Positions 5,549 through 20,112 of a DNA stretch of 23,342 nt are shown piece by piece. The position numbers and the translations under genes are program-made. The stretch's first letter is position 1. Each line of letters opens with the position of its first letter. This stretch comes from a virus. Below the pieces are notes generated by a model. That model did no database searches and was not told the DNA's origin. It saw only the letters and a program-made list of their open reading frames with translations. Location of the stretch: IMG/VR virus record IMGVR_UViG_3300009124_000107, positions 1 to 23,342 of that record; one strand, given 5' to 3'.

Positions 5549-6853
5549 ATGGCAGTATTTTATAACAGAGAAAAATCTAAGATTGGAACAACTACTGGAT
5601 CAATTATTAATTGGTCTAGGCAATTAACATCAAATGATCCAGAGGATACTCAGACAAGAGATCAACTGCCAGCTGGATATTTGAGATGTGATGGATCTAT
5701 TTACGCTGCCGAGGTGTTTCCTGCATTAGCAGAAGTTTTGGGAACAGGACAGCAATCTAGATTTAGAAAACCAACTCAAACTCTGTTAGATAACCAATTT
5801 CAATTGCCAGATTTTGGATCCAAAAAGATTCGTGCGTCTAGTGGCGCAAACTTAGGAGATTATGTTGATCTCTATATCCAAGATGACAATGACAATACCA
5901 TTACAAAATCTGGTGTTGGATTAGAAGTTCAAAGTAATATTGGAACACAATACGAGATTCTTTATCAAGGATCATTCTTCTTGCCATCTCAAACCATTCC
6001 TATCACAGGTGAGCCAGGATTTACTAGATCAACTGGTAACTATACAGAGATAACGGATGTCTTGCAAAATGCATTCATCCCACACGCACACTTCCACGAT
6101 GGCAACAGAACTAGAGTTGCATCATCAACTGGAAATGAGTATGCAGCATTTGGTAGAAACTCATATATTAAAAAATCTACATTGTGTGCAGTTGATTGGG
6201 CAAATAATACTAGACAAGATCTTTGCTACTACAATGCTACCAGAATTAGATTATCATCTGTTGTGCAGCAAGAGTCTAACGCTGCTGGATGCCAAAGAAC
6301 ATACTATGCTGGATGTTTCAGTGGTTGTGAATTTACATCATCATATGAGTGTTTGATTCCCGATGGATATACTTGTGGATTCCCAATTTGGTCTGGTAGT
6401 GGTGGTGGATGTCCTGGTGCTGGTTCACAAGAAAATGCAACTTGTGGAAACATTCAGTATCAGGGAACTGTTGCTGTAAAATGTCAATCTGTTGGATTCC
6501 CTGGTTGTGCTATTGGTGGATTCATTGCACAACCAAGAACTGGTCCAGTTACATTGCCATCAAACTATAGTGATTCTAACTTGCCATTTGATTCATTTAA
6601 AGATTCTGATCAGGATGCGTATGCTGCTATTAATAACGTAACAAACCAAGTTGTGGCAACTGGTAATGACGGATCACATAGACACTTTGTTAATTTTAGT
6701 GCTGACCCACATACATATCAAGTGAACACAAGTCCAAGTTTTATTCCTTCATCAAACTTAGTTTCTACTATTAGTATTAATGTCAATGAAGAGAATAAAG
6801 CAGATCAATTTATTCAGCCATATATCGTTCAAGAGTTTCTTATTAAATACTAA
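5549..6853 (+). CDS. Tail collar domain protein 2 with cysteine-rich insert
   Basis: A 434-residue paralogue of its neighbours. The collar domain is at about residues 13-67: GSIINW, PAGYLRCDGS and VFPALAEVLGTG. HxH motifs are at H179/H181 (with H183 also near) and H377/H379, and the last residues (VQEFLIKY) match the ends of the adjacent collar proteins. Between the two HxH sites lies an unusual insert, C213 to C320, with 11 cysteines in 108 residues plus many Gly and aromatic residues; the flanking collar genes lack it. GAGG at 5536-5539 supports the ATG. Its stop overlaps the next ATG by one base. Probably a tail or baseplate receptor-contact protein; the insert could be disulphide- or metal-stabilised after release from the cell. 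Confidence 0.82.
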   Translation: MAVFYNREKSKIGTTTGSIINWSRQLTSNDPEDTQTRDQLPAGYLRCDGSIYAAEVFPALAEVLGTGQQSRFRKPTQTLLDNQFQLPDFGSKKIRASSGANLGDYVDLYIQDDNDNTITKSGVGLEVQSNIGTQYEILYQGSFFLPSQTIPITGEPGFTRSTGNYTEITDVLQNAFIPHAHFHDGNRTRVASSTGNEYAAFGRNSYIKKSTLCAVDWANNTRQDLCYYNATRIRLSSVVQQESNAAGCQRTYYAGCFSGCEFTSSYECLIPDGYTCGFPIWSGSGGGCPGAGSQENATCGNIQYQGTVAVKCQSVGFPGCAIGGFIAQPRTGPVTLPSNYSDSNLPFDSFKDSDQDAYAAINNVTNQVVATGNDGSHRHFVNFSADPHTYQVNTSPSFIPSSNLVSTISINVNEENKADQFIQPYIVQEFLIKY

Positions 6854-9800
6854 TGACAGTCTCGTATAGAAATCGATTTACATCGTATAAACAAGAAACT
6901 GACGGACAGTATGCACCTGTCGGTTCAATTGTTTCTGTCTTAGTAGATTCCTTTTCAAATAATACTCAATCTGCTGAATATGGGTATAAAAATTATCTCT
7001 ATTGTGATGGTAGAGAATTAAATATTAGAGATTATCCATTTTTATATCGTTCGGTTGGAAACACATATGGCGGATCCACTACTGTAGAAAAAACTCAACC
7101 AACACAATCTGGTGGTGTAACTAAACTATATTGGATTAACGGTAAAGCATTCTTTAACTTACTACAAGATGGATCTGTTACTGGTGGTTTGAAACTACCA
7201 TATCCATATGGTGTAAATTTTAGAATTTCGGATGATGGAAATGGTAGAGGTGGATTGGATGCCACAAATTTCCCATATGATACATTCTTCTCTACTCAAG
7301 CTCCAACAGAAAATGTTTCTGCATATCTTCCTGGTGATGGAACGGAGTATGCATACGAACTTATATTTCCAGACAGTGTAACACCAACTCCTGGTGCAAC
7401 CGTTGTTTTTACTAGTGGAACTCATCCAAACATTTCATTTAGAAAAAACTTTAGTGAATCTGATTATCCATTCCAAGTAGGAACTTTTAGACTACCTGAC
7501 TACAGAGATAAAGTTATCGTTGGTTACGGTGCTGTAGATGGTGAAGGGTCTCCAACTGTTGAGAATGCACTTATCAACAACGTTGGACAAACTGGAGGTA
7601 GATGGTATATCTCTCAAAATAATTTGATTGATGGTGGAGTGTTCTTCACGGTTGGTAATGTTAGAACAACTGGATATACAAATATTTCTGCGGATATTTT
7701 CACGTATATTACTGGATCTGTTGAATATACACTGGGACCAATTGATGACTATATTTTCAGTAGACCAGTAGAGCACTTCCACTACATCCTTTCATCCGAA
7801 CCAGATGAAGGACTAGAAGCTGAATTTGGATCATCTCCTTCTGATCAATATGCTGTTCTATACAACAAATCTAGATCTAACATTGCACCTTTTGAACCAC
7901 AAGGATCTAGTGGATTAGCATTGGGACACTCTCATGGTTTAACTTCGGAACCATTGAATGATCCAAGAATGGCAACATATGGTAACGTTGGTGGTATTGG
8001 TGGTGAAGATCCTAACGTTCCAGCTGATATCAATTACGATGTTAATGATTCTATTTTAACTAATACTGCTTCATATAGTGGTGTATCATTGGAACTATAT
8101 GGCACTGGATCTGGTGAAATTGGTGGGTTTTCTGGTCCTGCAGTTACTGATAAGGGAGACAGATATCTAGCATTTGGATATGGTAATAGTGGAACTTTTG
8201 GTTCATCTTTGCAGACAAATAGATCTGTTACCTATACAATGGATTTTACTGGATATACTCAGTTATATATTTTTGCTATTTGTGGCAATGATAGCAATGG
8301 TGGGGAGAGACCAAACAATATTGGTGAAGGACTTCAAGTTACTATTGGTGGAAACACACAACAAATTATTCCATCAGGTCAAGATTTCAATGCTCAAAAT
8401 GGTATTGAAGCTGGAACAGGATTTGATGCATATGATGCTGTATATGCATATTGGACTCAGAGCTTTATAAACATTCCTGCTGCCAATCAAACAGCAGGAC
8501 AAACTGTTACCATCTCACAGACATGTCAGAACGCTGGTGGTGGAAATGAATTGCAACCTGGCAATGAGGGTTCTACAAACGCACTTGATATGTTTGGTAT
8601 TCAATCAATTGGATTGCGTGGTGGTATTCCAGAAGTTCCACCAGATCCAAATGGAACTTATCCTGTAACAGGATCTCCATTGGTAACGATTAGCAGTCTT
8701 ACATATGATTCTGCTAATGGATATGCTATCGCTGGTAGTGGAGCTCCACATGGATTTGACTCGGGTATGATTGTTAATATCAGTGGTGCCTTGCCAGTAG
8801 AATTTAATGGTGCAGTTGAGGTTTTACCTGATCAATTGAGTAGTGTTTCATTTACATATGTTCCTTTGAATGGTGCAGTTCCATCGCCAACAACTGCTAC
8901 TGGCACAATCACAGCAAGGATTGCATCTGGTAGTTTTAGTGATGTCACTACTACTCCTGCTCCAAAAGTTTATGTTATTAACAATAATACTGTTGTTGGT
9001 GGTAAGCCAGATGTCTTTGAAGTTCCTGGAACTGGCGTAATTTTCCAAGACCAATATATTACAGCACCAGACACCATTAATATGAGTCCAGTAGCTACTG
9101 GACCTGGAGAGTCTTTCTCTCAAATTACTGTAAATTTAGTTGCTCCTGGTGGCGGCGGTGCTGGTAGTTTTGGCGATGGTGGTGATGCGGGATATGCATA
9201 TGCAACATTTAACTGGAAAGGGACAAATAGAACCATTTATGCTTATGGTGGAGATGGTGGAACAAGAGGAAATAATGGAGGTGCAGGTGGATCTGGTGGA
9301 ACATTCCTTATTCCTACGGAACTAATTAACGATCCAGATTTCCAATATACTGCTGTTAATGGTATTGACGGTCAGACTGGTGGTGGAACTGGCACTGATA
9401 CTGCTTCTACTAGTGGTGGTGGAACTGATAATGCATATGGAACTGGCGGTAATGGCAATTCAACATCATTCGTAACTCAGGAAGCGGGAACATGGGAAAC
9501 GTATACTACTAGTGGAACATGGTCTGCTCCAAGTCCATCAAGTGGAGAAACTTCTAGAAACGTCCAAATTCAACTCGCTGGTGCTGGTGGCGGTGGTGGT
9601 AACCCAAATGCCAACTCTGGTTGTGGTGGTGGAGCTATTGGTGGAGTTGGTGGAGGTGGTGCATTGCTAACAGCAACACTATCTCAACAACCATCAACTC
9701 TTTCTTATACCCTTGGAACTGGCGGTAGTCCTGGTTTCAACAACAAAGATGGCAACACAGGAACTGGATCTGAAGCTGGATCATCAGCTGGTGGTGGCGG

Positions 9801-11969: not shown

Positions 11970-12796
11970 CAGAATTTGCCTCAACACAAACGGTAGCGTT
12001 GTATGTGAATGCCACTACTAGGCAAATGCAGCGTGATGGAATCACCAAAAGCATTAGCGATCAGTATTGGGCTGATGAAATTGTTCCTATTCTCTATCCT
12101 GTTTGGGACTCTGATAGAGATAAACTAGAAAGTTTTATCTATTATAAGGACGGAACTTCTAAGATGCTTAAAAATAAGTATCAAAGAAATCAAAAGACTG
12201 GTGGATACAAATGGGTATCGTATGAGTTTAATCTCTCTGCATTCCCAGAACATGAGATCATTGGACTTTATAATCAGTTGAATGACAAGTTCACAAACTT
12301 CAGGGACATTGAAGAATATGATCTTGACAGACAACTCCAGAGCACATATGCAAAAGATAATATTGTAAACTGGAATAAACTAACCATGATTAGAAAGTTT
12401 CTTCTTATGGATAGTGATTGGACTCAAGTTGGTGATGCACAAATCACTGACGAACAAAAGGCACAGTGGGTGGCATATAGACAGAAGTTAAGAGATATTC
12501 CACAAGATTATAGTGGATTCCCTGCTGCTGAAGTTAAGTTTCCCATCACCCCATCTAAGTATGCTGATAGAGTAGGATCTGGTGATACCGCAGAATACTT
12601 AGATGATGACAAGAATCATTTCTTCCTTCTTAATCAGTCTGTATATCAGAAGTATTCAAATAGAATTCTTACTTATCTGTCTATCTCTATTGCAGTTAAG
12701 AATATTGATGATATGCCAGTGTCTAGAGTATATGACTCTGATACTGACACCAACCTGGATGCAATTCTTGATTCTATTGAAAACGGAGAGGTCTGA
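11966..12796 (+). CDS. Tail fibre assembly-like protein with tail assembly chaperone segment
   Basis: A 276-residue protein. Residues about 144-180 (KFLLMDSDWTQVGD, then QWVAYRQKLRDIPQ) match the pattern of the phage tail assembly chaperone family: a Leu-Leu, an Asp-Trp-Thr, then Trp-x-x-Tyr-Arg-x-x-Leu-Arg-Asp-Ile-Pro. In that family the segment usually stands near a C terminus; here it is central, with about 140 unrecognised residues before it and about 95 after it, ending in an acidic tail. Placement right after collar proteins fits a helper or component of fibre assembly. The start overlaps the preceding stop, and a late-promoter match precedes it. The function is inferred from this one segment. 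Confidence 0.7.
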   Translation: MTEFASTQTVALYVNATTRQMQRDGITKSISDQYWADEIVPILYPVWDSDRDKLESFIYYKDGTSKMLKNKYQRNQKTGGYKWVSYEFNLSAFPEHEIIGLYNQLNDKFTNFRDIEEYDLDRQLQSTYAKDNIVNWNKLTMIRKFLLMDSDWTQVGDAQITDEQKAQWVAYRQKLRDIPQDYSGFPAAEVKFPITPSKYADRVGSGDTAEYLDDDKNHFFLLNQSVYQKYSNRILTYLSISIAVKNIDDMPVSRVYDSDTDTNLDAILDSIENGEV

Positions 12797-13188
12797 TGGC
12801 ACTAATTTCATTACAACCACATTCAATTCACGATCTTTGTGTTCGTATTGCTGCTAGTGAGAACAAATATGTTCTAGTGATTGATAATCATAGATATCAC
12901 ACACTCACCGACGAGCAGCAGGCAGCAGTATGTAATTACTACAAAGATCCTATTGATGAAGAGTTTGCAAACTGGATCATTCCTGAAGCAGAGATTGATG
13001 CTATTTTAGAAGCAAAAGATCTATTCTATGTGTTTGACACAGAGATTCAGGCAACTGATAATTGCTTTGATTGGTTCCCAAGACCAGAAAATTTACCAGA
13101 TGAGAATCACTGGATTAAAGCGTATGTTGTCAAGCCAGATGGCACGATCCCATACATCAACGAGAGAGCAGTTCCAGCAGAGGGTTGA
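12796..13188 (+). CDS. Unknown 130-residue protein, end of virion module
   Basis: I do not recognise this protein. It is acidic, has no signal peptide or membrane segment, and contains an acidic helical part (PEAEIDAILEAKD) and a compact C-terminal stretch, YVVKPDGTIPYINERAVP. The ATG overlaps the TGA of the preceding gene by one base, and GGAGAGG just upstream is a good ribosome site, so it is translated with the tail-assembly-like gene. Its own stop codon lies inside the TTGACA of the next promoter. A role in tail assembly or structure is suggested only by position. Confidence 0.7.
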   Translation: MALISLQPHSIHDLCVRIAASENKYVLVIDNHRYHTLTDEQQAAVCNYYKDPIDEEFANWIIPEAEIDAILEAKDLFYVFDTEIQATDNCFDWFPRPENLPDENHWIKAYVVKPDGTIPYINERAVPAEG

Positions 13189-13214
13189 CACTGGGTTGAC
13201 TGGTGTGCTAGGGT
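13185..13214 (+). promoter_or_regulatory. Sigma70-like promoter for the 13237 gene
   Basis: TTGACA (13185-13190), an 18-base spacer and TAGGGT (13209-13214), with TG two bases before the -10 as an extended element. The TGA of the preceding gene is inside the -35 box. A second TTGAC lies 11 bases downstream at 13196. Transcription would start close to 13221, shortly before the ATG at 13237. The -10 is a weak match. Confidence 0.5.
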
Positions 13215-13236
13215 AGCAAAGCACAAGTGAAAATTT

Positions 13237-13467
13237 ATGAAAGTACCTACGCAACCCGAGTTGACACACTTGCAGCTACAAGCAATGTTACGCGATCACA
13301 ATATTCCAGAAAGCGAAGTAAAGTATCTGGGTGAGTTTGAGTATACTATTGAGTATCAAGCACATCCACAATATCACGGTCAAATGATGCATTGGTATCG
13401 CATTGGAGGCGAGCACGAGGTGCCTGTCTGCGACATCGCATCGGTCGATCGAGTGGACGAAGAATAA
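13237..13467 (+). CDS. Unknown 76-residue protein, one-gene unit
   Basis: No family is recognised. The protein is small, His- and Glu-rich and soluble, with an aromatic middle part (LGEFEYTIEYQAHPQY) and an acidic end. It stands alone between a TTGACA-type promoter 50 bases upstream and a strong intrinsic terminator ten bases downstream, which suggests expression as a separate short early transcript between the late virion genes and the helicase unit. No clear ribosome site precedes the ATG. The gene call rests on the intact frame, the flanking signals and the otherwise tightly packed genome. Confidence 0.65.
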   Translation: MKVPTQPELTHLQLQAMLRDHNIPESEVKYLGEFEYTIEYQAHPQYHGQMMHWYRIGGEHEVPVCDIASVDRVDEE

Positions 13468-13476
13468 ACTGTCACA

Positions 13477-13499
13477 GGGGGGTCTCGCACCCCCTTTTT
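13477..13499 (+). terminator. Intrinsic terminator after the 13237 gene
   Basis: Six G (13477-13482), the loop TCTCGCA, five C (13490-13494) and five T (13495-13499) form a strong G:C hairpin with a T tail. The part CACCCCCTTTTTCATGC (13488-13504) is repeated exactly at 16649-16665, in the terminator ahead of the nuclease gene. Confidence 0.88.
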
Positions 13500-13506
13500 C
13501 ATGCTC

Positions 13507-13512
13507 TATAAT
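13507..13512 (+). promoter_or_regulatory. Consensus -10 box (TATAAT) of the helicase unit
   Basis: A perfect TATAAT lies eight bases after the terminator T run. No good -35 box is present: with a 17-base spacer the position falls on CTCGCA in the terminator loop. By analogy with the composite signal at 16638-16671, transcription should start near 13519, which would exclude the ATG at 13501 as the helicase start. Confidence 0.5.
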
Positions 13513-13536
13513 AATCACATCAACGCAAGAGACCAC

Positions 13537-14787
13537 TTGACCCTGACCCTTCGCCCACACCAGCAGCGTATGCTTGACGCTCTGCAACGTGCAGATCGTG
13601 GACGCCTGACCTGCCCTACAGGCGGCGGTAAGACCCTTGTGATGATCCTTGACACCCTGCGTCGTCTTCAGCAGGCAGACCGCCCCCAGACCATTGTGGT
13701 GGTGTCTCCTCGCATCCTGTTGTCAGTTCAGCTCTATGAAGAGTTCTTTGCTGAACTGAATGGTAAGGTAGATGTTGCTGTCATGCACGTTCACAGCGGT
13801 GAAGTTGAAGGTAACAGCACCACTAAGATTCAAGAGATCCAGTGTCATGCTGCTGTGTGTGCTGCTGCTAATACTCACCAACTGATCTTCACTACTTACA
13901 ACTCGCTGCGTCGCATCAATGAGGCAGGCATTGATGTTGATACCATCTATTACGATGAGGCGCACAATTCTGTTCGCCGTGACTTTTTCAAGGAAGTTGC
14001 TGCTGCTACCCTCACTGCCAAGCAAGCATACTATTTGACTGCCACTCCTAAGTATCGTGGTGGTGCTATCAGCATGAATAATACTGATGTATATGGTTCT
14101 GAACTGATTAACGTTCCTGCTCCTGAGCTTATCAACAACGGTAGCATCATTCCTCCTACCATTCTGCCTCACGTTGTTGACATCGAGCGCCACAAGTCTC
14201 TGCTTGCTGCTGAGAATGACCGTGAGGTGCTGGTTGACATCATCAACAAACTCGATGATGATGCCGCCCAAAAGATCTTGGTTGCTGCTCCTAACACTCG
14301 TGTGCTGTGGGCGTTGCTGACTGGCACTAATGTGATGCAGCAGTTTGCTGACCGTGGTTATGATGTGCTCCACATCACCAGCAAGCACGGTGCATATGTC
14401 AACAAGACTAAGGTTGGTCGTCAAGAGTTCTTCGACACTCTTGATGCATGGGGTAAAGATCCTAACCGTAAGTTTATCATGTTTCACTACAGCATCCTGT
14501 CCGAAGGCATCAACGTGCCTGGTCTCACCCATACCATTCTTCTCCGCAATCTTCCCGTGATTGAGATGGCGCAAACCATCGGTCGTGTGATCCGTCTTGA
14601 CCGCCAGGATGCTGCTGACATCGCTGGTGGTAAGATCCCTGCGGGTAGTCTTCAGTTCTATCGCAAGCGCACTGGTTTTGTGACCGTGCCTGTCTTCACC
14701 AACTATGGTAAGCAGACTGAGAAGCGTTTGCAGCGTGTGGTAGACTCTATCTTTGTCAAAGGTGTTGCTGCTACGGAGTTTGCCTAA
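13537..14787 (+). CDS. SF2 DEAH-type helicase
   Basis: A superfamily 2 ATP-dependent nucleic acid helicase, 416 residues from the TTG at 13537. Motifs in order: Q-like LRPHQ (5-9), Walker A CPTGGGKT (26-33), DEAH (140-143), TAT (168-170), SEGINVP (322-328) and QTIGRVIR (346-353), so both RecA-like lobes are complete. The fold class is that of type III restriction helicase subunits and phage UvsW; which role it plays in replication or recombination is not decided. The frame also offers an ATG at 13501, adding 12 residues, but a TATAAT lies within those codons and AAGAGA precedes the TTG, so I prefer the TTG. All 28 arginines are CGT or CGC. It overlaps the next gene by one base (TAATG). Confidence 0.88.
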   Translation: MTLTLRPHQQRMLDALQRADRGRLTCPTGGGKTLVMILDTLRRLQQADRPQTIVVVSPRILLSVQLYEEFFAELNGKVDVAVMHVHSGEVEGNSTTKIQEIQCHAAVCAAANTHQLIFTTYNSLRRINEAGIDVDTIYYDEAHNSVRRDFFKEVAAATLTAKQAYYLTATPKYRGGAISMNNTDVYGSELINVPAPELINNGSIIPPTILPHVVDIERHKSLLAAENDREVLVDIINKLDDDAAQKILVAAPNTRVLWALLTGTNVMQQFADRGYDVLHITSKHGAYVNKTKVGRQEFFDTLDAWGKDPNRKFIMFHYSILSEGINVPGLTHTILLRNLPVIEMAQTIGRVIRLDRQDAADIAGGKIPAGSLQFYRKRTGFVTVPVFTNYGKQTEKRLQRVVDSIFVKGVAATEFA

Positions 14788-15395
14788 TGCTATTTGAGTT
14801 CGAGAATCCATTTGTATTCTGGACTAGTGTCAAAGATCATCAAAAGATCAAAGACAAACTGGTCCCGAGGATCAAACGCGACTCAGCAAATGAGGATCTC
14901 ATTCACAGACCAAATGAGTTTATGGTCTCATCATTCTATAGTCAAACATATGATTATATTACGGATGAGATGCTGAAGAATATAGTATGGGATCCTTTGG
15001 AGCAAATGCATGTAGAGAAGCAAATCATGACACCTTCAAACTATACACTGGAAGCATTTTGGTGGAATGTGTATCAGCCAGGTGGATTTGCTAAAGTTCA
15101 CTCACATGCATCTGCTGATTGGTCTGGTGTGTATCTCGTTCATTTAGAAGAACCGAATCAGACGTATTTTTACTCGCACTTCGGGCACACACCCAACACT
15201 GGGTACATGAATCAACAAAAAATCCTAGATGAGGCTGTAGAGGGTGATGTTATCCTATTTCCATCATTCTTAGAGCACTCATTTCATCCTGGTGCTAAGG
15301 ATCGTATCATTATTGCGTTTGATATTATATCAAACCATGGTCGTCCTAGAGTAAATATTGTAAAGAAAAGAAAACAGGACCTGCTCTGGTCCTGA
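14787..15395 (+). CDS. 2-oxoglutarate/Fe(II)-dependent oxygenase (small phage type)
   Basis: This 202-residue protein matches the putative 2OG-Fe(II) oxygenase family common in cyanophages. WNVYQPGGF (93-101) precedes the metal motif with H105 and H107, then WSGVYLV (112-118), GDVILFPSFLEH with distal H164, and R173 as the likely 2-oxoglutarate-binding residue, followed by IIIAFDI. Cyanophages usually carry several such enzymes; substrates are unknown. It starts on the stop of the helicase (TAATG), so the two are translated together, although no direct functional link is known. An inverted repeat overlaps its stop codon. It is only distantly similar to the oxygenase at 11355. Confidence 0.85.
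   Translation: MLFEFENPFVFWTSVKDHQKIKDKLVPRIKRDSANEDLIHRPNEFMVSSFYSQTYDYITDEMLKNIVWDPLEQMHVEKQIMTPSNYTLEAFWWNVYQPGGFAKVHSHASADWSGVYLVHLEEPNQTYFYSHFGHTPNTGYMNQQKILDEAVEGDVILFPSFLEHSFHPGAKDRIIIAFDIISNHGRPRVNIVKKRKQDLLWS
15375..15394 (+). other. Perfect inverted repeat across the oxygenase stop codon
   Basis: CAGGACC and GGTCCTG form a seven-base-pair stem around a six-base loop, ending inside the TGA. There is no T run downstream on this strand; on the opposite strand the hairpin would be followed by a T-rich tract. A second, weaker stem (TGTGAG/CTCACA, 15409-15435) follows. Together they may end or protect the helicase-oxygenase transcript. Confidence 0.4.
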
Positions 15396-15469
15396 ATCAT
15401 TAAGAATGTGTGAGGGAATCCCATTTTCTCTCACATCCAATCTAAAATACCTTAGTTCGACAGACAACC

Positions 15470-15652
15470 ATGGATCAAGACAAGCACGACAAACGCCGCG
15501 ATGCCCTGGGTCTCTTCTATGAGAGCGTATTGAAACCCGATCCAGCACTGCGCCAGTGTGCTCACAATCAGAAATGTTACCATGAGTTGATGGAATGGCG
15601 CTCACAAGTGCTAGAATATCTTGACAACCGCCGTAATGAGGAATTTAACTAA
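15470..15652 (+). CDS. Unknown 60-residue charged protein
   Basis: No family is recognised. The protein is helical and strongly charged, with Asp/Lys/Arg at the start (MDQDKHDKRRDALG) and an Arg-rich end; two cysteines (C30, C36) lie in the middle. It is the first gene after a 74-base gap holding hairpins, and TAAAAT at 15443-15448 is a possible -10 box though no -35 is visible. Its TAA overlaps the ATG of the next gene by one base, which supports it as a real member of a small-gene operon. Confidence 0.7.
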   Translation: MDQDKHDKRRDALGLFYESVLKPDPALRQCAHNQKCYHELMEWRSQVLEYLDNRRNEEFN

Positions 15653-15951
15653 TGACCATTGAAGGACGCCCCGAGATTCAACATGACTGGAAAAAAGAGT
15701 TTGAGAGACAGCGCAAAGATCGTCTCCAAGATGCTATCGATGAGTATCTCCAAGATCATGAAGTATCACCACGACGAGCGTATGAAGAGATTCTATCTTG
15801 CGTCCAAGATGTAATGGATTATCACAGAAAGAACCTTGATCGCACTACTGCGCTAAAATGTCTTCTGATGGGTCATCGTGAGATTGATTTCATGGGTGAT
15901 CCCGAACTTGCCTCTAAATGGCAATATGAAAAACTGCCCGAGCGATTCTGA
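15652..15951 (+). CDS. Unknown 99-residue helical protein
   Basis: Not recognised. It is almost wholly charged and helical, with pattern WKKEFERQRKDRLQDAID near the N terminus and a C-terminal DFMGDPELASKWQYEKLP. There is no membrane segment or known motif. The start overlaps the preceding stop (TAATG) and its own stop overlaps the next start (TGATG), so it is one of a chain of co-translated small genes between the oxygenase and the nuclease-methyltransferase unit. Confidence 0.75.
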   Translation: MTIEGRPEIQHDWKKEFERQRKDRLQDAIDEYLQDHEVSPRRAYEEILSCVQDVMDYHRKNLDRTTALKCLLMGHREIDFMGDPELASKWQYEKLPERF

Positions 15952-16157
15952 TGAATGAAAAAGAGCGTTTGCTGATTGCATTGCAGCAAATAAATAACAT
16001 CACCAATCTGATACAGGACAACCAACACAAAGAATTTCTGTATGGTAAACTGATATCGGTTGAGGTAGAATTACAAAGGCAACTCACTAACATCACATAT
16101 CATGAACGAAGAAGAGTTCAAGGCAGCAGTAAAGAACCTGCTGATGCTACAAAATAA
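15951..16157 (+). CDS. Unknown 68-residue helical protein
   Basis: Not recognised. The first 48 residues look like a real amphipathic coiled helix (MNEKERLLIALQQINN, then LIQDNQHKEFLYGKLI). The last 19 residues are encoded in DNA shared with the next gene in another frame, where composition is less protein-like. The start overlaps the previous stop (TGATG). Good evidence for the start and body; the C-terminal end may simply be read-out into the neighbour. Confidence 0.6.
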   Translation: MNEKERLLIALQQINNITNLIQDNQHKEFLYGKLISVEVELQRQLTNITYHERRRVQGSSKEPADATK

Positions 16158-16299
16158 TAACGATCACAACTTTCAGATTTTACAAGTTCAAATTGATGAT
16201 CTTAAACGTCAGTTGAATGATCTTAATGATTTGAAAGAAATGTTCCGTCTTCCCAAACCTGAGAATAAGGATCGGAAAGCATTTGATGAAGCAGACTGA
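16102..16299 (+). CDS. Unknown 65-residue coiled-coil-like protein
   Basis: Not recognised. It is a short acidic and helical protein with a leucine-spaced stretch (ILQVQIDDLKRQLNDLND) that should form a coiled coil, followed by a Lys/Pro-rich tail. It overlaps the previous gene by 56 bases in another frame and the next gene by 14 bases. A scaffolding or oligomerisation role is possible but not shown. Confidence 0.65.
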   Translation: MNEEEFKAAVKNLLMLQNNNDHNFQILQVQIDDLKRQLNDLNDLKEMFRLPKPENKDRKAFDEAD

Positions 16300-16573
16300 T
16301 TTTGAGTTACTTCAACCAGTGTGCTATCATGGCACATGTGGTTACATCTCTTTCATTAGTGAATACTATATCAGTATTTGCTTTAGAGACATCCCACTCC
16401 CTGAAAGTGCAAACTCTCGGTGGGGTCGCCACTATGTTAATCTCGTTGTTTACCCTGAATTTTGGCATGAAATACGCTGTTGTCTGGATGAAGACCAAGA
16501 AAAAGGGTACTGCCCGCCAAGAAGCAATCTTCTACAATTTGGAAGACGCCGCCTTGTGGGAGCAGCACATTAA
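16286..16573 (+). CDS. Unknown 95-residue protein (YHG...VYPEFWHEI type)
   Basis: The function is unknown. The first 65 or so residues look like a small beta-barrel protein of a kind often seen in cyanophages: LLQPVCYHGTCGYISFI, then YYISICFRDIP, then YVNLVVYPEFWHEI. The remaining 30 residues overlap the next gene in another frame and look less natural. I chose the ATG at 16286 over the TTG one codon earlier; GGAA lies upstream. It overlaps the preceding gene by 14 bases. A functional product could depend only on the N-terminal part. Confidence 0.62.
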   Translation: MKQTDFELLQPVCYHGTCGYISFISEYYISICFRDIPLPESANSRWGRHYVNLVVYPEFWHEIRCCLDEDQEKGYCPPRSNLLQFGRRRLVGAAH

Positions 16574-16625
16574 CAAAACAGAACACGCCAAGACGGACAT
16601 CATCCCGATCTTTGGTGACAGTTGA
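16467..16625 (+). CDS. Unknown 52-residue protein inside the end of the previous gene
   Basis: Not recognised. Translation from the ATG at 16467 gives a compact, natural-looking protein: MKYAVVWMKTKKKG, a helix EAIFYNLEDAALWEQHI, and DIIPIFGDS at the end. The first 107 bases overlap the preceding gene in another frame, and no ribosome site is evident, so translational coupling is likely. The frame is open upstream to a TTG at 16302, but that part reads as a shadow of the preceding gene. Its TGA lies within a TTGACA just before the terminator. Confidence 0.6.
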   Translation: MKYAVVWMKTKKKGTARQEAIFYNLEDAALWEQHINKTEHAKTDIIPIFGDS

Positions 16626-16637
16626 CAGACTGGTCTA

Positions 16638-16660
16638 GGGGGTTGACACACCCCCTTTTT
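16638..16660 (+). terminator. Intrinsic terminator before the nuclease-methyltransferase unit
   Basis: Five G (16638-16642), the loop TTGACACA, five C (16651-16655) and five T (16656-16660). It ends the upstream small-gene operon. The loop contains a perfect -35 hexamer, TTGACA, and 17 bases (16649-16665) are identical to those in the terminator at 13477. Confidence 0.88.
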
Positions 16661-16671
16661 CATGCCATACT
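16643..16671 (+). promoter_or_regulatory. Sigma70-like promoter nested in the terminator
   Basis: TTGACA (16643-16648), a 17-base spacer and CATACT (16666-16671); TACTAT overlaps as an alternative -10. The -35 lies in the terminator loop, and the descending stem and T run form the spacer. Transcription would start near 16678, leaving about 18 bases before the ATG at 16696. Confidence 0.65.
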
Positions 16672-16695
16672 ATCTGTATCAAAGCAATCCACTCC

Positions 16696-17310
16696 ATGCG
16701 CTCCCTTGTTACCAAACTGAACGAGAGTTACAAGCAGCAGGCATCTTACTGGTCTGGTTCTATCTTTGAAGATGTTGTCAACTTCTCTACTGATTACAAA
16801 GGAAGATGGGGTGAAGAGCTACTGCGTGACATCATCAAAGATTACACTGACATTCCAGTGCAATGGGATGAAGACTCTAACACATCTAATGATGACGGTG
16901 TGTATGATTTGTTCTGGTTTCTTCACGAAGGTAAGAAACGTCGTGTTGAGGTGAAGACATCTGGGCGCACTGTCGCTAAGGGCAAACCTATTGGTTGGCA
17001 GCATGAGAATGTTTATTTTTCTGATGACAAGTGGGATAAACTTGTCTTCCTTGATTATGATGCTAATGATGTGATCTACATCACTGTTGTCAACTACAAT
17101 CAGGTTGTGAAGGACAACATGATTGATCTTTCTCTCTTTGGTAAGAAAGGTCACCAGCGTAAGAATGAAGAAGGTAAAGCGAAGGTTGACTTTAGCATGA
17201 AGTCCATCCAGAGAGGCATTGACGCTGGTGTCACATTCATGTATGATTTTAACAACCCCCAAGACGAACTGCTCGGTCTCTTCCTCATCAACAAACTCAG
17301 CATATACTGA
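16696..17310 (+). CDS. PD-(D/E)XK-type nuclease, candidate restriction endonuclease
   Basis: The 204-residue protein has the residue order of the PD-(D/E)XK nuclease fold. E40 lies in a helix (GRWGEELLRDIIKDY), D71 ends a strand (GVYDLFWFL), and E85 and K87 are in RRVEVKTSG, 14 residues after D71, which would bind Mg2+ and cut DNA. A following WQHENVYFSDDKWDKLVFLDYD resembles strand-helix parts of small type II restriction enzymes. It directly abuts a DNA adenine methyltransferase gene, stop TGA then ATG with no gap, and is first in the unit. Restriction activity is inferred; it might instead be a structure-specific or host-DNA-degrading nuclease. Arginines are mostly CGT/CGC. There is no strong ribosome site. 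Confidence 0.68.
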   Translation: MRSLVTKLNESYKQQASYWSGSIFEDVVNFSTDYKGRWGEELLRDIIKDYTDIPVQWDEDSNTSNDDGVYDLFWFLHEGKKRRVEVKTSGRTVAKGKPIGWQHENVYFSDDKWDKLVFLDYDANDVIYITVVNYNQVVKDNMIDLSLFGKKGHQRKNEEGKAKVDFSMKSIQRGIDAGVTFMYDFNNPQDELLGLFLINKLSIY

Positions 17311-18387
17311 ATGAATAATATCTACGATTTCTTCCTCCCCATTTACAACAAGCATGGCATGACTGCCATTTGTGATGGATTGTATCTTCATAAAGGTACA
17401 GTCAAGCGGTGGATGGAGAAGAAAGAAGTGCCACCGCAGTATTATTTTGATCTGTGTCGCATTGATGGTATTGATGTAGATTACTCCCATCACACTGAGA
17501 AGGAGAAAGATCAGTTTTTCACCAGCAAAGAGACAGCACAGTATTGCTATAACAAAGCGATTGAGATCATAGCACCGCTCTGCAATCTTGGTGACTATAC
17601 TTTCATTGAACCATCCGCAGGTGATGGTAGTTTCTACAACATCATGCCTACGATGCAGCGCGTTGGTGTTGACATTGAGCCACGATGTGAGGGTGTGATT
17701 CAATCTGACTTTCTCAACTGGGTGCCAGAGACACAGAATAATATCTGTATTGGCAATCCTCCTTTTGGTCTGCGCGGACACCTTGCGCTCAAGTTTATCA
17801 ACCACGCGGCAAAGTTCTCTGACTTTGTGTGCTTTGTGCTCCCTCAGTTGTTTGACAGCAATGGCAAGGGCAGTTGTAAAAGTCGTGTGAAAGGTATGAA
17901 CCTCATTCACAGTGAGGTTGTTGACTCTGCATTCTACTATCCTGGTGGTAAGGATGTGACTGTCAACGTTGTATTTCAAGTGTGGGCTAAGAACCATAAG
18001 GTAGAGGAGGAAGAGGTTGATCTAACTAACATCATCAAACTCTACTCCCTATCTGATGGTGGTACGCCAGGTAGCACTCGTAATAAACAACATCTATATT
18101 CTTGTGATTTCTACCTGCCTTCCACCTGCTTTGGGTCGGACAGCATGACGGTCTACGATAATTTTGAAAATCTTCCGCATCGACGCGGATATGGTATTGT
18201 AGTACAGTCATGTGGTGATGAGATTAAGAGTATTATGCGCGAAACTAACTGGTCTGAGGTAGCATTTGCCTCTACAAATGGCGCATATAACCTCAGATTT
18301 GATATTATTGAGCGTCACATCTGGTCTCACTTGACTGGGACGTGCAAAGATACAAGCAAAAGACCCACGCTCATGGCATTTGTGTGA
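17311..18387 (+). CDS. N6-adenine-type DNA methyltransferase with N-terminal HTH-like segment
   Basis: A 358-residue SAM-dependent methyltransferase. Motif X-like KEKDQFFTSKE (63-73), motif I FIEPSAGDGSF (98-108), an acidic motif II GVDIEP (119-124), QSDFL (131-135) and catalytic motif IV GNPPFG (148-153) come in the gamma order of type II adenine (or N4-cytosine) methyltransferases; the rest of the protein would hold target recognition. Residues about 14-45 (MTAICDGLYLHKGTVKRWMEKK) resemble a helix-turn-helix, as in methyltransferases that regulate their own operon. It follows the nuclease gene without a gap and should protect sites the nuclease cuts. The target sequence cannot be read from this. 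A lone epigenetic or anti-restriction role is the alternative. Confidence 0.85.
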   Translation: MNNIYDFFLPIYNKHGMTAICDGLYLHKGTVKRWMEKKEVPPQYYFDLCRIDGIDVDYSHHTEKEKDQFFTSKETAQYCYNKAIEIIAPLCNLGDYTFIEPSAGDGSFYNIMPTMQRVGVDIEPRCEGVIQSDFLNWVPETQNNICIGNPPFGLRGHLALKFINHAAKFSDFVCFVLPQLFDSNGKGSCKSRVKGMNLIHSEVVDSAFYYPGGKDVTVNVVFQVWAKNHKVEEEEVDLTNIIKLYSLSDGGTPGSTRNKQHLYSCDFYLPSTCFGSDSMTVYDNFENLPHRRGYGIVVQSCGDEIKSIMRETNWSEVAFASTNGAYNLRFDIIERHIWSHLTGTCKDTSKRPTLMAFV

Positions 18388-18431
18388 CAGATGACAAACC
18401 GCACACCATCTGACCCACGGGCACCTGGATG

Positions 18432-18468
18432 CCCTATACTACAAAGGTAGTCAAGGGAACACCCCATG
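18432..18468 (+). repeat. 37-base promoter-leader repeat, copy A
   Basis: This copy runs from CCCTATACT through AAGGTAGTCAAGGGAAC to the ATG of the 18466 gene. It differs from copy B (18926-18962) at only three positions. It holds a -10 box, the leader and the ribosome site (AAGGGAA), so the repeat is a whole expression signal. Confidence 0.9.
18435..18440 (+). promoter_or_regulatory. -10 box TATACT of the 18466 gene
   Basis: TATACT lies 25 bases before the ATG, matching five of six consensus bases. CTGACC (18410-18415) with a 19-base spacer is the best -35 and is weak. A five-pair GGGCA/TGCCC stem abuts it upstream. Confidence 0.5.
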
Positions 18469-18702
18469 CAACTCCAGAACTCTGCCACTCAAGTCGATTT
18501 CTACCCTGTCGCTGGTGGCAAGCGTTTTGTCAAGCGTGTGATCTGGCATCCTGGTGCTGAGAGCGAGATGACTTCCTTCAGCACTGTAGTCAAGACCGAT
18601 GCTCTCTATTCTATCCGTAACCTGATCGCCAACGGTGCTGAGGTGACTGATTTCAACCTCGAAGCATATACTGGTTCTGATTACTCTCCTGTCGCCTGCT
18701 GA
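18466..18702 (+). CDS. Unknown 78-residue protein
   Basis: Not recognised. It is a small soluble protein with beta-type segments (VDFYPVAGGKRFVKRVIWHP) and an Ile/Leu-rich middle, without a membrane segment or signal. It is the first gene after the methyltransferase and has its own promoter, leader and ribosome site (the 37-base repeat, AAGGGAA). Codon use is rich in CGT and C-ending codons, as in other early-type genes here. Confidence 0.75.
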   Translation: MQLQNSATQVDFYPVAGGKRFVKRVIWHPGAESEMTSFSTVVKTDALYSIRNLIANGAEVTDFNLEAYTGSDYSPVAC

Positions 18703-18748
18703 GAGGCGTCTAGAAGCGCCTGTAATGCCCCTCTGACCCCTGTGACCT

Positions 18749-18925
18749 ATGAAGACCGCTGAAGTCCCTCTGACTGCCCCTGAACTGAAGTTTCTGATCG
18801 ACCTGATGTGGGGTGCTCCCATCGCCACTGTGCGTGAGACAGCATCGCGCCATGGTCTGTCCGATACCGAGGTTGAGGGACACTTGGTGAAGTGTCTAGG
18901 CTACCTGTACCTGGAGACCGATTGA
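18749..18925 (+). CDS. Unknown 58-residue protein
   Basis: Not recognised. The ATG at 18749 opens a clean frame to the TGA at 18923: LTAPELKFLIDLMWGAPIA, then VRETASRHGLSDTEVEGHL, an arrangement of short helices that could suit a small DNA-binding fold, though this is only a guess. Its last bases lead directly into the promoter of the next gene, with the stop sitting in an attgaccc. No ribosome site is evident. It follows a 46-base gap. Confidence 0.65.
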   Translation: MKTAEVPLTAPELKFLIDLMWGAPIATVRETASRHGLSDTEVEGHLVKCLGYLYLETD

Positions 18926-18962
18926 CCCTATACTACTAAGGTAGTCAAGGGAACGACCCATG
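18926..18962 (+). repeat. 37-base promoter-leader repeat, copy B
   Basis: Second copy of the element at 18432, identical at 34 of 37 positions and also ending on an ATG (of the 18960 gene). The changes are an A to T in the discriminator and two bases just before the CCC. Confidence 0.9.
18929..18934 (+). promoter_or_regulatory. -10 box TATACT of the 18960 gene
   Basis: TATACT, part of the repeated element, lies 25 bases before the ATG. The position of a -35 box at a 17-base spacer reads TGTACC, a poor match, so recognition may rest on the -10 and sequence downstream or on a phage-altered polymerase. Confidence 0.5.
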
Positions 18963-19118
18963 CCTCTGATCTCAGACGACACTCTCGACAAGCAACTCCG
19001 CCGCACCATTCTCCAAAACATTGAGAGTTATGACATTGAAACGCTAAAGCGCATCGCTTACGAGTGCCGCTGTGAAGAGATGGGTCTGCTCCCTGACAAC
19101 ACTTACCTGAATTTTTGA
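18960..19118 (+). CDS. Unknown 52-residue protein
   Basis: Not recognised. It is a short helical protein: MPLISDDTLDKQLRRTILQN followed by ETLKRIAYECRCEEMGLLPD, with two close cysteines (C36, C38). Its promoter, leader and ribosome site are the second copy of the 37-base repeat. The next gene begins one base after its stop, so the two are transcribed together. Confidence 0.72.
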   Translation: MPLISDDTLDKQLRRTILQNIESYDIETLKRIAYECRCEEMGLLPDNTYLNF

Positions 19119-19119
19119 A

Positions 19120-19275
19120 ATGACTGACGAATTTGAAATGCTTGTGAACGAGATGGCATGTGATCCTCTCTTCATCAAAGCATGTGAAGAAAACAATCAA
19201 CAGTGGGAAGAAGAAGCGGCAGCGCATCTTGAGATCACTGTAGACCAACTCCAAACCATTCTTAACAACAACTGA
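19120..19275 (+). CDS. Unknown 51-residue acidic protein
   Basis: Not recognised. Acidic and helical (MTDEFEMLVNEMACDPLFIK, then QWEEEAAAHLEITVDQLQTIL). The start is one base after the preceding stop. It is one of three small acidic or helical proteins made from the 18929 promoter. The frame is intact but short, so the call depends on the tight packing and the natural composition. Confidence 0.68.
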   Translation: MTDEFEMLVNEMACDPLFIKACEENNQQWEEEAAAHLEITVDQLQTILNNN

Positions 19276-19280
19276 TTACC

Positions 19281-19409
19281 ATGATTAACGAAGTAATGCT
19301 TGACCGCTGGTTGCTCGATCAACTGGAAGAAAAATACGATGTGATGGAAGTAGACAGCGACATGCCAGTCGAAGAACTGTCCCAAGACGTGCTCGAACTG
19401 CTCTCCTGA
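19281..19409 (+). CDS. Unknown 42-residue acidic protein
   Basis: Not recognised. A very short, acidic and helical protein (NEVMLDRWLLDQLEEKYDVM, then PVEELSQDVLELLS). It starts five bases after the preceding gene, and the TATACT of the next promoter follows just after its stop. Length makes this the least certain of the group. Confidence 0.6.
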   Translation: MINEVMLDRWLLDQLEEKYDVMEVDSDMPVEELSQDVLELLS

Positions 19410-19413
19410 GCCC

Positions 19414-19419
19414 TATACT
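19414..19419 (+). promoter_or_regulatory. -10 box TATACT of the 19447 gene
   Basis: CCCTATACT is the same nine-base core as in the 37-base repeat, here without the rest of that leader. It lies 27 bases before the ATG. AAAGGA upstream of CACCACTCC serves as ribosome site. No -35 match is visible. Confidence 0.5.
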
Positions 19420-19446
19420 GATTACATCAGCAAAGGACACCACTCC

Positions 19447-19827
19447 ATGATCTCGATGCCTAACCCCACCGCCACCCGCCAAGAGTTCTCTCAGTTCTGT
19501 GCTGAGCGTGATGCTCGCAACACTATCCACCTCAACATTGTGAAGTATGGTCTGATGCTGTGTGATGCTCTCCAGCAGACTGCTCCTGACGGTTATTTCT
19601 ACTCTCTGGACTCTTCTGGTCGCAAGTATCACAAAGTCTTCATGTATATTGGTGATCGCCGCGATAGCATCCACGCTTTCATCGACAAGAAGACTGGTGA
19701 AGTTTTCAAACCTGCTAGCATCAAAGCGCCTGCCAAGGGTGCTCGCTACAACGTTCTCTCTATCTCCTCTCGTGAAGAGATGCTTGAGCGTTGTGACTGG
19801 GCTGGTGGTTATCTCTACATGCGTTGA
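19447..19827 (+). CDS. Unknown 126-residue protein, conserved-type cyanophage early gene
   Basis: Function unknown. It is a soluble alpha/beta protein with TRQEFSQFCAERDARN at the start, a middle YHKVFMYIGDRRDSIHAFID, then KTGEVFKPASIKAPAKGARY and a final WAGGYLYMR. This layout is familiar from hypothetical proteins of many T4-like cyanophages (from memory, not searched). The ATG at 19456 is an alternative start three codons in. It has its own CCCTATACT promoter, and the stop lies in the -35 of the next promoter. The codon choice (CGC/CGT, C-ending) suggests good expression. Confidence 0.8.
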   Translation: MISMPNPTATRQEFSQFCAERDARNTIHLNIVKYGLMLCDALQQTAPDGYFYSLDSSGRKYHKVFMYIGDRRDSIHAFIDKKTGEVFKPASIKAPAKGARYNVLSISSREEMLERCDWAGGYLYMR

Positions 19828-19852
19828 CATTCCGCATCATACATAGTACACT
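19824..19852 (+). promoter_or_regulatory. Sigma70-like promoter of the 19876 gene
   Basis: TTGACA (19824-19829), a 17-base spacer and TACACT (19847-19852), the best-spaced host-type promoter in the window. The TGA of the preceding gene lies within the -35 box. Transcription should start near 19859, leaving about 17 leader bases with no ribosome site. Confidence 0.75.
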
Positions 19853-19875
19853 GTAATTCGTTCGCTTTCACTCCC

Positions 19876-20112
19876 ATGTTCTACCTCGTTGCTGCTGGTA
19901 ATGCCTACGCGATGGATCATTCTAGTGATACCATGTACGGCATGACCTGCTATGATGATCAAACTGTCGATCTTGACGATTGCTATGACATCGCTTATGA
20001 TGCTGTTGATGAGGACGAGCAAGAATACCTTGCTCATGTCGCCTATCATCTGCAACAGATTGCTAAACTGACTGAAGAACACCGTCAACTCAACGAGGTA
20101 TTTGTTAAATGA
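19876..20112 (+). CDS. Unknown 78-residue acidic protein
   Basis: Not recognised. The N terminus is mildly hydrophobic (MFYLVAAGNAYAMDHSS) but too short for a confident signal peptide; an acidic part (DQTVDLDDCYDIAYDAVDED) and a helical Gln/Leu/Glu end follow. It is led by a clear TTGACA/TACACT promoter with a short leader lacking a Shine-Dalgarno. Its stop overlaps the next ATG by four bases (ATGA), so it heads a chain of coupled small genes that runs to about 22264. Confidence 0.75.
   Translation: MFYLVAAGNAYAMDHSSDTMYGMTCYDDQTVDLDDCYDIAYDAVDEDEQEYLAHVAYHLQQIAKLTEEHRQLNEVFVK

Follow-up and report, generated by a model that had tools for sequence, protein, structure and literature searches.

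A putative type II restriction-modification pair with predicted site TGNNCA in an exchangeable slot of T4-like cyanophages

Introduction

Two adjoining genes on a viral contig, one resembling a nuclease and the other a DNA methyltransferase, raise the question of whether a phage carries a restriction-modification (R-M) system of its own and, if so, which sequence that system recognises and whose DNA it would attack. The genes, here called R and M, lie on a 23,342-nt virus contig (IMG/VR record IMGVR_UViG_3300009124_000107), which we analysed at its full length and refer to as the window. The UvsW-like helicase that it encodes shares 93-95% identity with those of Synechococcus phages S-WAM2 and S-H9-1, and the window therefore belongs to a T4-like cyanophage.

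Results

R and M adjoin and retain the motifs of a nuclease and a methyltransferase

R (204 aa, positions 16696-17310, plus strand) is followed with zero gap by M (358 aa, positions 17311-18387, plus strand), the R stop codon TGA occupying 17308-17310 and the M start codon ATG beginning at 17311; most relatives have an ATGA in which the two codons overlap. An initial annotation, made from sequence alone, had described this gapless arrangement and had proposed E40, D71, E85 and K87 as PD-(D/E)XK nuclease residues, and both claims held. The four residues, together with W101-Q102-H103 of a WQHEN motif at residues 101-105, are invariant in 20 R homologues, and purifying selection on R is strong (dN/dS 0.06-0.13, about 0.07). 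An AlphaFold (AF2) model of R (pLDDT 86) has as its top PDB matches a restriction endonuclease-DNA complex (3ndh), NhoI, I-Ssp6803I, DpnI and EcoRV, and almost all of its top structural matches are nucleases of the PD-(D/E)XK fold, with Foldseek E-values that are modest singly (best 1.6e-3). Single-sequence family searches with R gave no clear match except to an uncharacterised PHROG, and an R profile searched against 85,000 bacterial and archaeal species genomes returned zero matches. Model and sequence together predict that R has a PD-(D/E)XK fold with intact active-site residues; that it catalyses cleavage is inferred.

The gamma-order N6-adenine-type motifs attributed to M (PSAGDGSF and GNPPFG) also held, EPSAGDGSF (motif I) and GNPPFG (motif IV) being invariant among 18 M homologues. 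M matches PADLOC MTase_II PDLC03280 (E 4.8e-62) and, by sequence, M.TaqI, and its structure model matches M.BseCI, CamA and MmeI. With the SAM and catalytic motifs of a gamma-class N6-adenine DNA methyltransferase, M satisfies what a type II R-M system demands of its modification gene. Searches with M found many phage methyltransferases; M itself fails the criterion for an orphan methyltransferase, that no nuclease be nearby, because R adjoins it. Residues 1-58 of M (positions 17311-17484, plus strand) form a helix-turn-helix (HTH)-like domain with AF2 helices at residues 5-15, 17-24, 28-37 and 42-52, a region present in full-length Helicobacter relatives (L109, L112-L116) and missing in Helicobacter relatives of 304-320 aa. 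It is possible, by inference, that this domain autoregulates its own operon.

The weakest of the initial claims was that the two genes share a promoter. A sigma-70-like candidate, TTGACA-17-CATACT with TG preceding its -10 element, does lie at positions 16643-16671 (plus strand), where it overlaps an intrinsic-terminator-like hairpin 3' of the upstream gene (16637-16656, plus strand). It is a consensus match only, and a promoter scan of the region gave 8 promoter-like sites against 7.5 by chance in shuffled sequence, which is no excess. The zero gap, and the ATGA overlap in relatives, are stronger evidence for a single operon than the promoter match.

The pair is conserved among viruses and has homologues in Helicobacter

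IMG/VR scans and ORF analysis placed R and M side by side in about 40 distinct viral contigs, satisfying the type II criterion of separate, adjacent endonuclease and methyltransferase genes, and the pairing is kept in nearly all viral relatives. The exceptions are one contig with R and no adjacent M (L060/L129), one with M and no R (L098) and one with the order M-R (L099). R and M have recombined relative to each other, as the R of one contig (L002) shares 95% identity with the R of the window and its M only 73%, and the opposite pattern occurs in L008-L009. The assignment of R would have been refuted by a predicted fold lacking the PD-(D/E)XK core, by homologues without E85 and K87 or by a lack of association with the methyltransferase in relatives; the predicted fold resembles restriction enzymes, both residues are invariant and the association holds, so that none of the three refutes it.

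Bacterial relatives in Helicobacter, Campylobacter and Ureaplasma were reached via M and not via the R profile, and most of these loci have a small PD-(D/E)XK gene directly 3' of M. The Helicobacter R gene matches PADLOC REase_II PDLC03498 and its M falls in PDLC03280. Phage and bacterial R proteins give reciprocal profile HMM matches, align by hhalign with an E-value of 7.6e-6 (60 of 60 column shuffles score lower) and match by BLASTP at 7e-7, with about 30% identity over 91 residues. Helicobacter intermediates (L109/L112, of a second branch comprising L109 and L112-L114) have an R that both profiles detect and an M with the HTH region. Homology of both phage proteins to Helicobacter M-R pairs satisfies the criterion that we set for an Hpy188III-type subfamily.

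The Helicobacter and Campylobacter pairs (PDLC03498 with PDLC03280) resemble the phage pair in having homologous M and R, adjacent genes and a gamma-class m6A methyltransferase, but their order in Helicobacter is M-R rather than R-M. In one Helicobacter branch (L117/L128) M-R is flanked by accC and a gene for a PseC-like aminotransferase; by the gene order accB-accC-M-R-x-aminotransferase we take this locus to be H. pylori HP0369/JHP1012. The JHP1012 methyltransferase (M.Hpy99XVIII) is of the gamma class with site TCNNGA, and JHP1013 (Hpy188III) cleaves TCNNGA (PMC3936762). The H. pylori branch is likely to be of Hpy188III type (TCNNGA), with the reservation that the link rests on gene order. 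This TCNNGA-like branch lacks the N-terminal HTH of the phage M; the TCNNGA of these probable Hpy188III-type pairs and the TGNNCA predicted below for the phage are both gapped NN palindromes.

The closest bacterial relatives are full-length pairs of Helicobacter bilis type (L109, L112-L114; M 397-410 bits, R E-values 3.6e-11 to 8.4e-13), in which an M of 357-365 aa with the HTH adjoins a PD-(D/E)XK R of 153-185 aa; they differ from the phage pair in lying in bacterial genomes and in their M-R order. Around the full-length M-R pairs of L109 and L112-L116, GTNNAC occurs once against 37 expected in 24 kb, an observation that may be Helicobacter-wide. C. jejuni Cj0208 (RAATTY) was considered as a relative and dropped, there being no sequence link.

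Missing sites predict TGNNCA as the recognition sequence

We scanned all 256 dinucleotide pairs at spacings 0-8 (2304 patterns) in 22 R-carrying contigs of subfamilies A and B and in 8 cyanophage isolates without R. TGNNCA was the most depleted pattern of all, with 629 observed against 2618 expected in contigs with R and 1634 against 2397 in isolates without it; its log2 ratio of -1.50 compares with -0.82 for the runner-up and a standard deviation of 0.28 over patterns. The spacing controls TGNCA and TGNNNCA were mostly normal. The controls are cyanophage isolates and not R-free siblings matched to each contig, and the contigs are fragments.

The window holds 37 TGNNCA sites against 154 expected, and some R contigs are nearly free of the site (0/39, 0/37, 5/151 and, in a contig with R alone, 1/53), the depletion among R phages being uneven, from 0.00 to 0.67. 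By simple expectation R-free cyanophages are also somewhat low in TGNNCA (0.6-0.8), but the two tested, S-H9-1 and S-WAM2, lie above their own codon-preserving null, whereas under the same codon-preserving shuffle the window's genes have 31 sites against 69.5 +/- 6.5. In uvsW, 5 of the 7 S-H9-1 sites and 6 of the 8 S-WAM2 sites are gone in the window with the amino acids unchanged. The stretch around the pair, positions 12437-19955 (no strand assigned), has sites only at 15559 and 15653, with none in the R-M genes (12.7 expected) and none in uvsW (10.9 expected). Chance depletion is ruled out by the spacing controls, the 2304-pattern scan and the codon shuffles. TCNNGA, the Hpy188III site, was rejected, on indirect evidence, as the phage specificity, as it occurs at expectation (0.93 in the window, about 1.0 pooled in R phages).

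By contig counts, depletion accompanies both the R+M system and R alone, and TGNNCA stands at background level in a contig with M alone (G003). Five divergent relatives (G314, G005, G004, G322 and G324) are also not depleted in TGNNCA beyond background, so the prediction extends only to the two subfamilies closest to the window. Within that limit, genome statistics lead us to infer TGNNCA as the predicted recognition site of the window pair; cleavage there, and the specificity of M, are likewise inferred.

Two other depletions were recorded. In the G317/G318 contigs (L152, L173, L153 and L174) TGNCA is depleted as well (0.39), which suggests a second enzyme or another history. None of the cyanophage isolates examined contains CCGG, and GGCC is close to absent from them, whatever the slot content, perhaps a host restriction signature.

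The pair occupies a slot whose contents are exchanged between close relatives

Downstream of uvsW, the same two small genes, both conserved cyanophage ORFs, flank differing contents in close relatives of the window. The left border gene, g107 (positions 16302-16625, plus strand), is present in S-WAM2, S-H9-1, ACG-2014h and contigs L002, L060, L176 and L177; the right border gene, g78 (18466-18702, plus strand), lies directly right of the slot in S-WAM2 (88%), S-H9-1 (91%), L060, L176 and L177. At the left border, small ORFs at 16283-16573 and 16302-16625 overlap in different frames, and both have counterparts in relatives.

The slot holds the R-M pair in the window and in L002, which has extra ORFs before the right border gene. 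In L060 it holds the window-type R alone, on an 8.9 kb fragment that is the contig with 1/53 TGNNCA; the rest of that genome may still encode a methyltransferase. In S-WAM2 it holds a 188-aa protein, whose resemblance to nucleases rests solely on a D-X12-E-S-K motif, and a D12-class (Dam-type) methyltransferase. In S-H9-1 (contig labels L101/L132/L196-L198) and L176/L177 the only slot protein is one of 257 aa with weak similarity to MamI; its gene also stands alone in ACG-2014h (L102/L133) and L180, where it follows the same left-hand gene. This MamI-like nuclease matches Pfam RE_MamI at E 0.02, below the Pfam cut-off, and PADLOC REase_II PDLC03588 at E 4e-5; the resemblance concerns the lone nuclease of these other phages and not the window pair.

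The MamI restriction endonuclease has the site GATNNNNATC. That site is a subset of GA-N6-TC, which is missing from both MamI-like isolates: in the complete 192,454-base genome of S-H9-1 (MW117966) 863 are expected and none occurs, and no other GA-N-TC spacing between 0 and 12 falls below 531 copies; ACG-2014h has 0 of 298 in 74 kb. Cyanophages without a MamI-like enzyme have normal GA-N6-TC counts. MamI-like relatives with no adjacent methyltransferase have 0/72, 0/46 and 0/45 (2/29 in a truncated contig), and where a TDPPY-type methyltransferase adjoins the gene, 0-28 sites are retained per relative, in total 114 of about 366 expected. S-WAM2 has one GTAC against 52.6 by codon shuffle. When homologous genes are compared between close relatives, a change of slot enzyme goes with a change of missing site. 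The MamI-like and S-WAM2 enzyme assignments rest on weak family matches or a motif plus the missing sites.

Discussion

These data make it likely that R and M are a type II R-M system, distantly related to a Helicobacter family, with TGNNCA as its predicted site and an exchangeable slot as its home. Computation shows the gene structure, fold, homology, conservation, site depletion and slot; enzymatic activity, the methylated base, timing and target are inferred. The initial suggestion of an R-M-like pair is thereby supported beyond adjacency, by the Helicobacter M-R homologues and by TGNNCA depletion, and what goes beyond it is the slot, in which restriction enzymes are interchangeable and do not always come with a methyltransferase.

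We propose that R and M would be co-transcribed, probably early, by host RNA polymerase. M would methylate the adenine of TGNNCA on phage DNA, and R would cut unmethylated TGNNCA in the host chromosome, where about one site per 256 bp is expected, and in the DNA of competing phages. The phage would be doubly protected, by methylation and by loss of about three quarters of its expected TGNNCA sites. Different restriction enzymes would succeed each other in the slot, some accompanied by a methyltransferase and some not; a phage lacking an adjacent methyltransferase for its enzyme would depend on site erasure, and an adjacent one would ease, without abolishing, the cost of keeping sites. The missing site tracks the slot enzyme, the solo-R contig has 1/53 TGNNCA and S-H9-1 has 0/863 GA-N6-TC, and the enzymes are therefore probably active. 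Active, sequence-specific slot nucleases are likely the simplest account, with activity inferred in the absence of any enzyme assay, and it is likewise a likely inference that the phages are immune through methylation, site erasure or both.

Several points count against this explanation. TGNNCA is still about 4-fold depleted in R+M phages, although a working M should make the sites tolerable. The residual depletion could stem from methylation that is incomplete, from an earlier stage with R alone or from host enzymes sharing the specificity, and we regard these only as possibilities. The unevenness of the depletion, the somewhat low TGNNCA counts of R-free cyanophages by simple expectation, the modest Foldseek E-values, the promoter match at chance level and the fragmentary state of the solo-R contig weigh on the same side.

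The harder question is whose DNA is cut. One candidate for the main role is breakdown of the host chromosome with recycling of its nucleotides, as proposed for chloroviruses, rather than exclusion of rivals, and the arguments for and against it are nearly balanced. Chlorovirus restriction enzymes are credited with rapid degradation of host DNA and are not responsible for mutual exclusion (PMC7019647); an enzyme that shreds host DNA would require just such a combination of solo nuclease and phage genome free of its sites; and an early-type promoter is possible. Against this, a co-expressed M could also methylate host sites, the marseillevirus R-M system leaves host DNA undegraded (PMC7253447) and there are no host data for the cyanophage pair.

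The other candidate, exclusion of superinfecting or co-infecting phages, we hold to be slightly the weaker. R-free cyanophages retain many TGNNCA sites and MamI-free ones have normal GA-N6-TC, and such phages would therefore be cut; the varied enzymes in one slot resemble frequency-dependent competition, and marseillevirus R-M has been discussed in co-infection terms (PMC7253447). However, there are no co-infection data, and self-protection by itself would suffice to select for site erasure. Both the host chromosome and rival phages are likely targets, which genome data cannot separate, and in the absence of enzyme assays or of infection or co-infection data we keep them as alternatives, as the initial annotation had.

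A third reading is counter-defence only: hosts carry a TGNNCA-specific restriction enzyme, phages shed sites and gain M, and R is a passenger or inactive. Phages commonly avoid host sites and carry lone methyltransferases, of which our searches found many, and TGNNCA depletion persists in M-carrying phages. This reading is nevertheless unlikely, as R evolves under strong purifying selection with invariant catalytic residues, a contig with R and no adjacent M lost nearly all TGNNCA, same-slot MamI-like phages without an adjacent methyltransferase have no sites whereas most with one keep some, and close relatives lose differing sites according to the slot enzyme. That R is a repair or recombination nuclease beside a methyltransferase by chance is very unlikely: the PD-(D/E)XK fold does occur in repair nucleases and family searches with R were unclear except for the uncharacterised PHROG, but the pairing is conserved, including in bacterial R-M homologues, and sequence-specific depletion is tied to the presence of R.

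Other viruses offer partial parallels. The chlorovirus systems (CviAI, CviAII and CviJI) likewise have virus-encoded R and M and a proposed attack on host DNA (PMC7019647), but their hosts are eukaryotic and the restriction enzyme is packaged in the virion; the relevant sections of PMC7019647 make no mention of a solo restriction enzyme with erased sites. The marseillevirus pair is also virus-encoded, protects viral DNA and can threaten R-M-free relatives, but its site is GATC and host DNA is not degraded (PMC7253447). Neither this cyanophage pair nor solo phage restriction enzymes with erased sites were found described in the open-access literature searched, most subscription journals lying outside its scope.

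Returning to the reading of R and M as an R-M system in an exchangeable slot, a bolder form of it, which we consider more likely than not, is that T4-like cyanophages keep a dedicated locus of interchangeable restriction enzymes as weapons against host and rival DNA, with the methyltransferase optional and immunity provided by genome-wide site erasure; the window pair would be the methylase-assisted version, with site TGNNCA. If this is true, a site wholly erased from a 192 kb virus that encodes the apparent cognate nuclease would amount to restriction without modification, and the usual picture of phages as restriction victims would be reversed. It bears on host genome breakdown by, and competition among, abundant marine phages. 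With the missing-site signature, phage genomes alone suffice to predict the specificity of uncharacterised viral restriction enzymes; candidate new specificities are TGNNCA for the window, GA-N6-TC for the MamI-like enzymes and possibly GTAC for the S-WAM2 pair.

Some observations on slot enzymes stand apart from this argument. The S-WAM2 slot pair is found at 14532-15957 of L100 and in L131, and S-WAM2 is strongly depleted in GANTC beside GTAC. A homolog of the S-WAM2 pair adjoins the helicase in S-CAM8, which has no clear missing site. In S-RIM44 (L136/L195) GTAC is absent in 49 kb, and no restriction enzyme was recognised downstream of the helicase. Finally, L181 carries two tandem R-M pairs at 6655-9682, the first a 178-aa PD-(D/E)XK-like protein (KGEFGERF) with a DLPYG methyltransferase and the second a MamI-like nuclease with a TDPPY methyltransferase.
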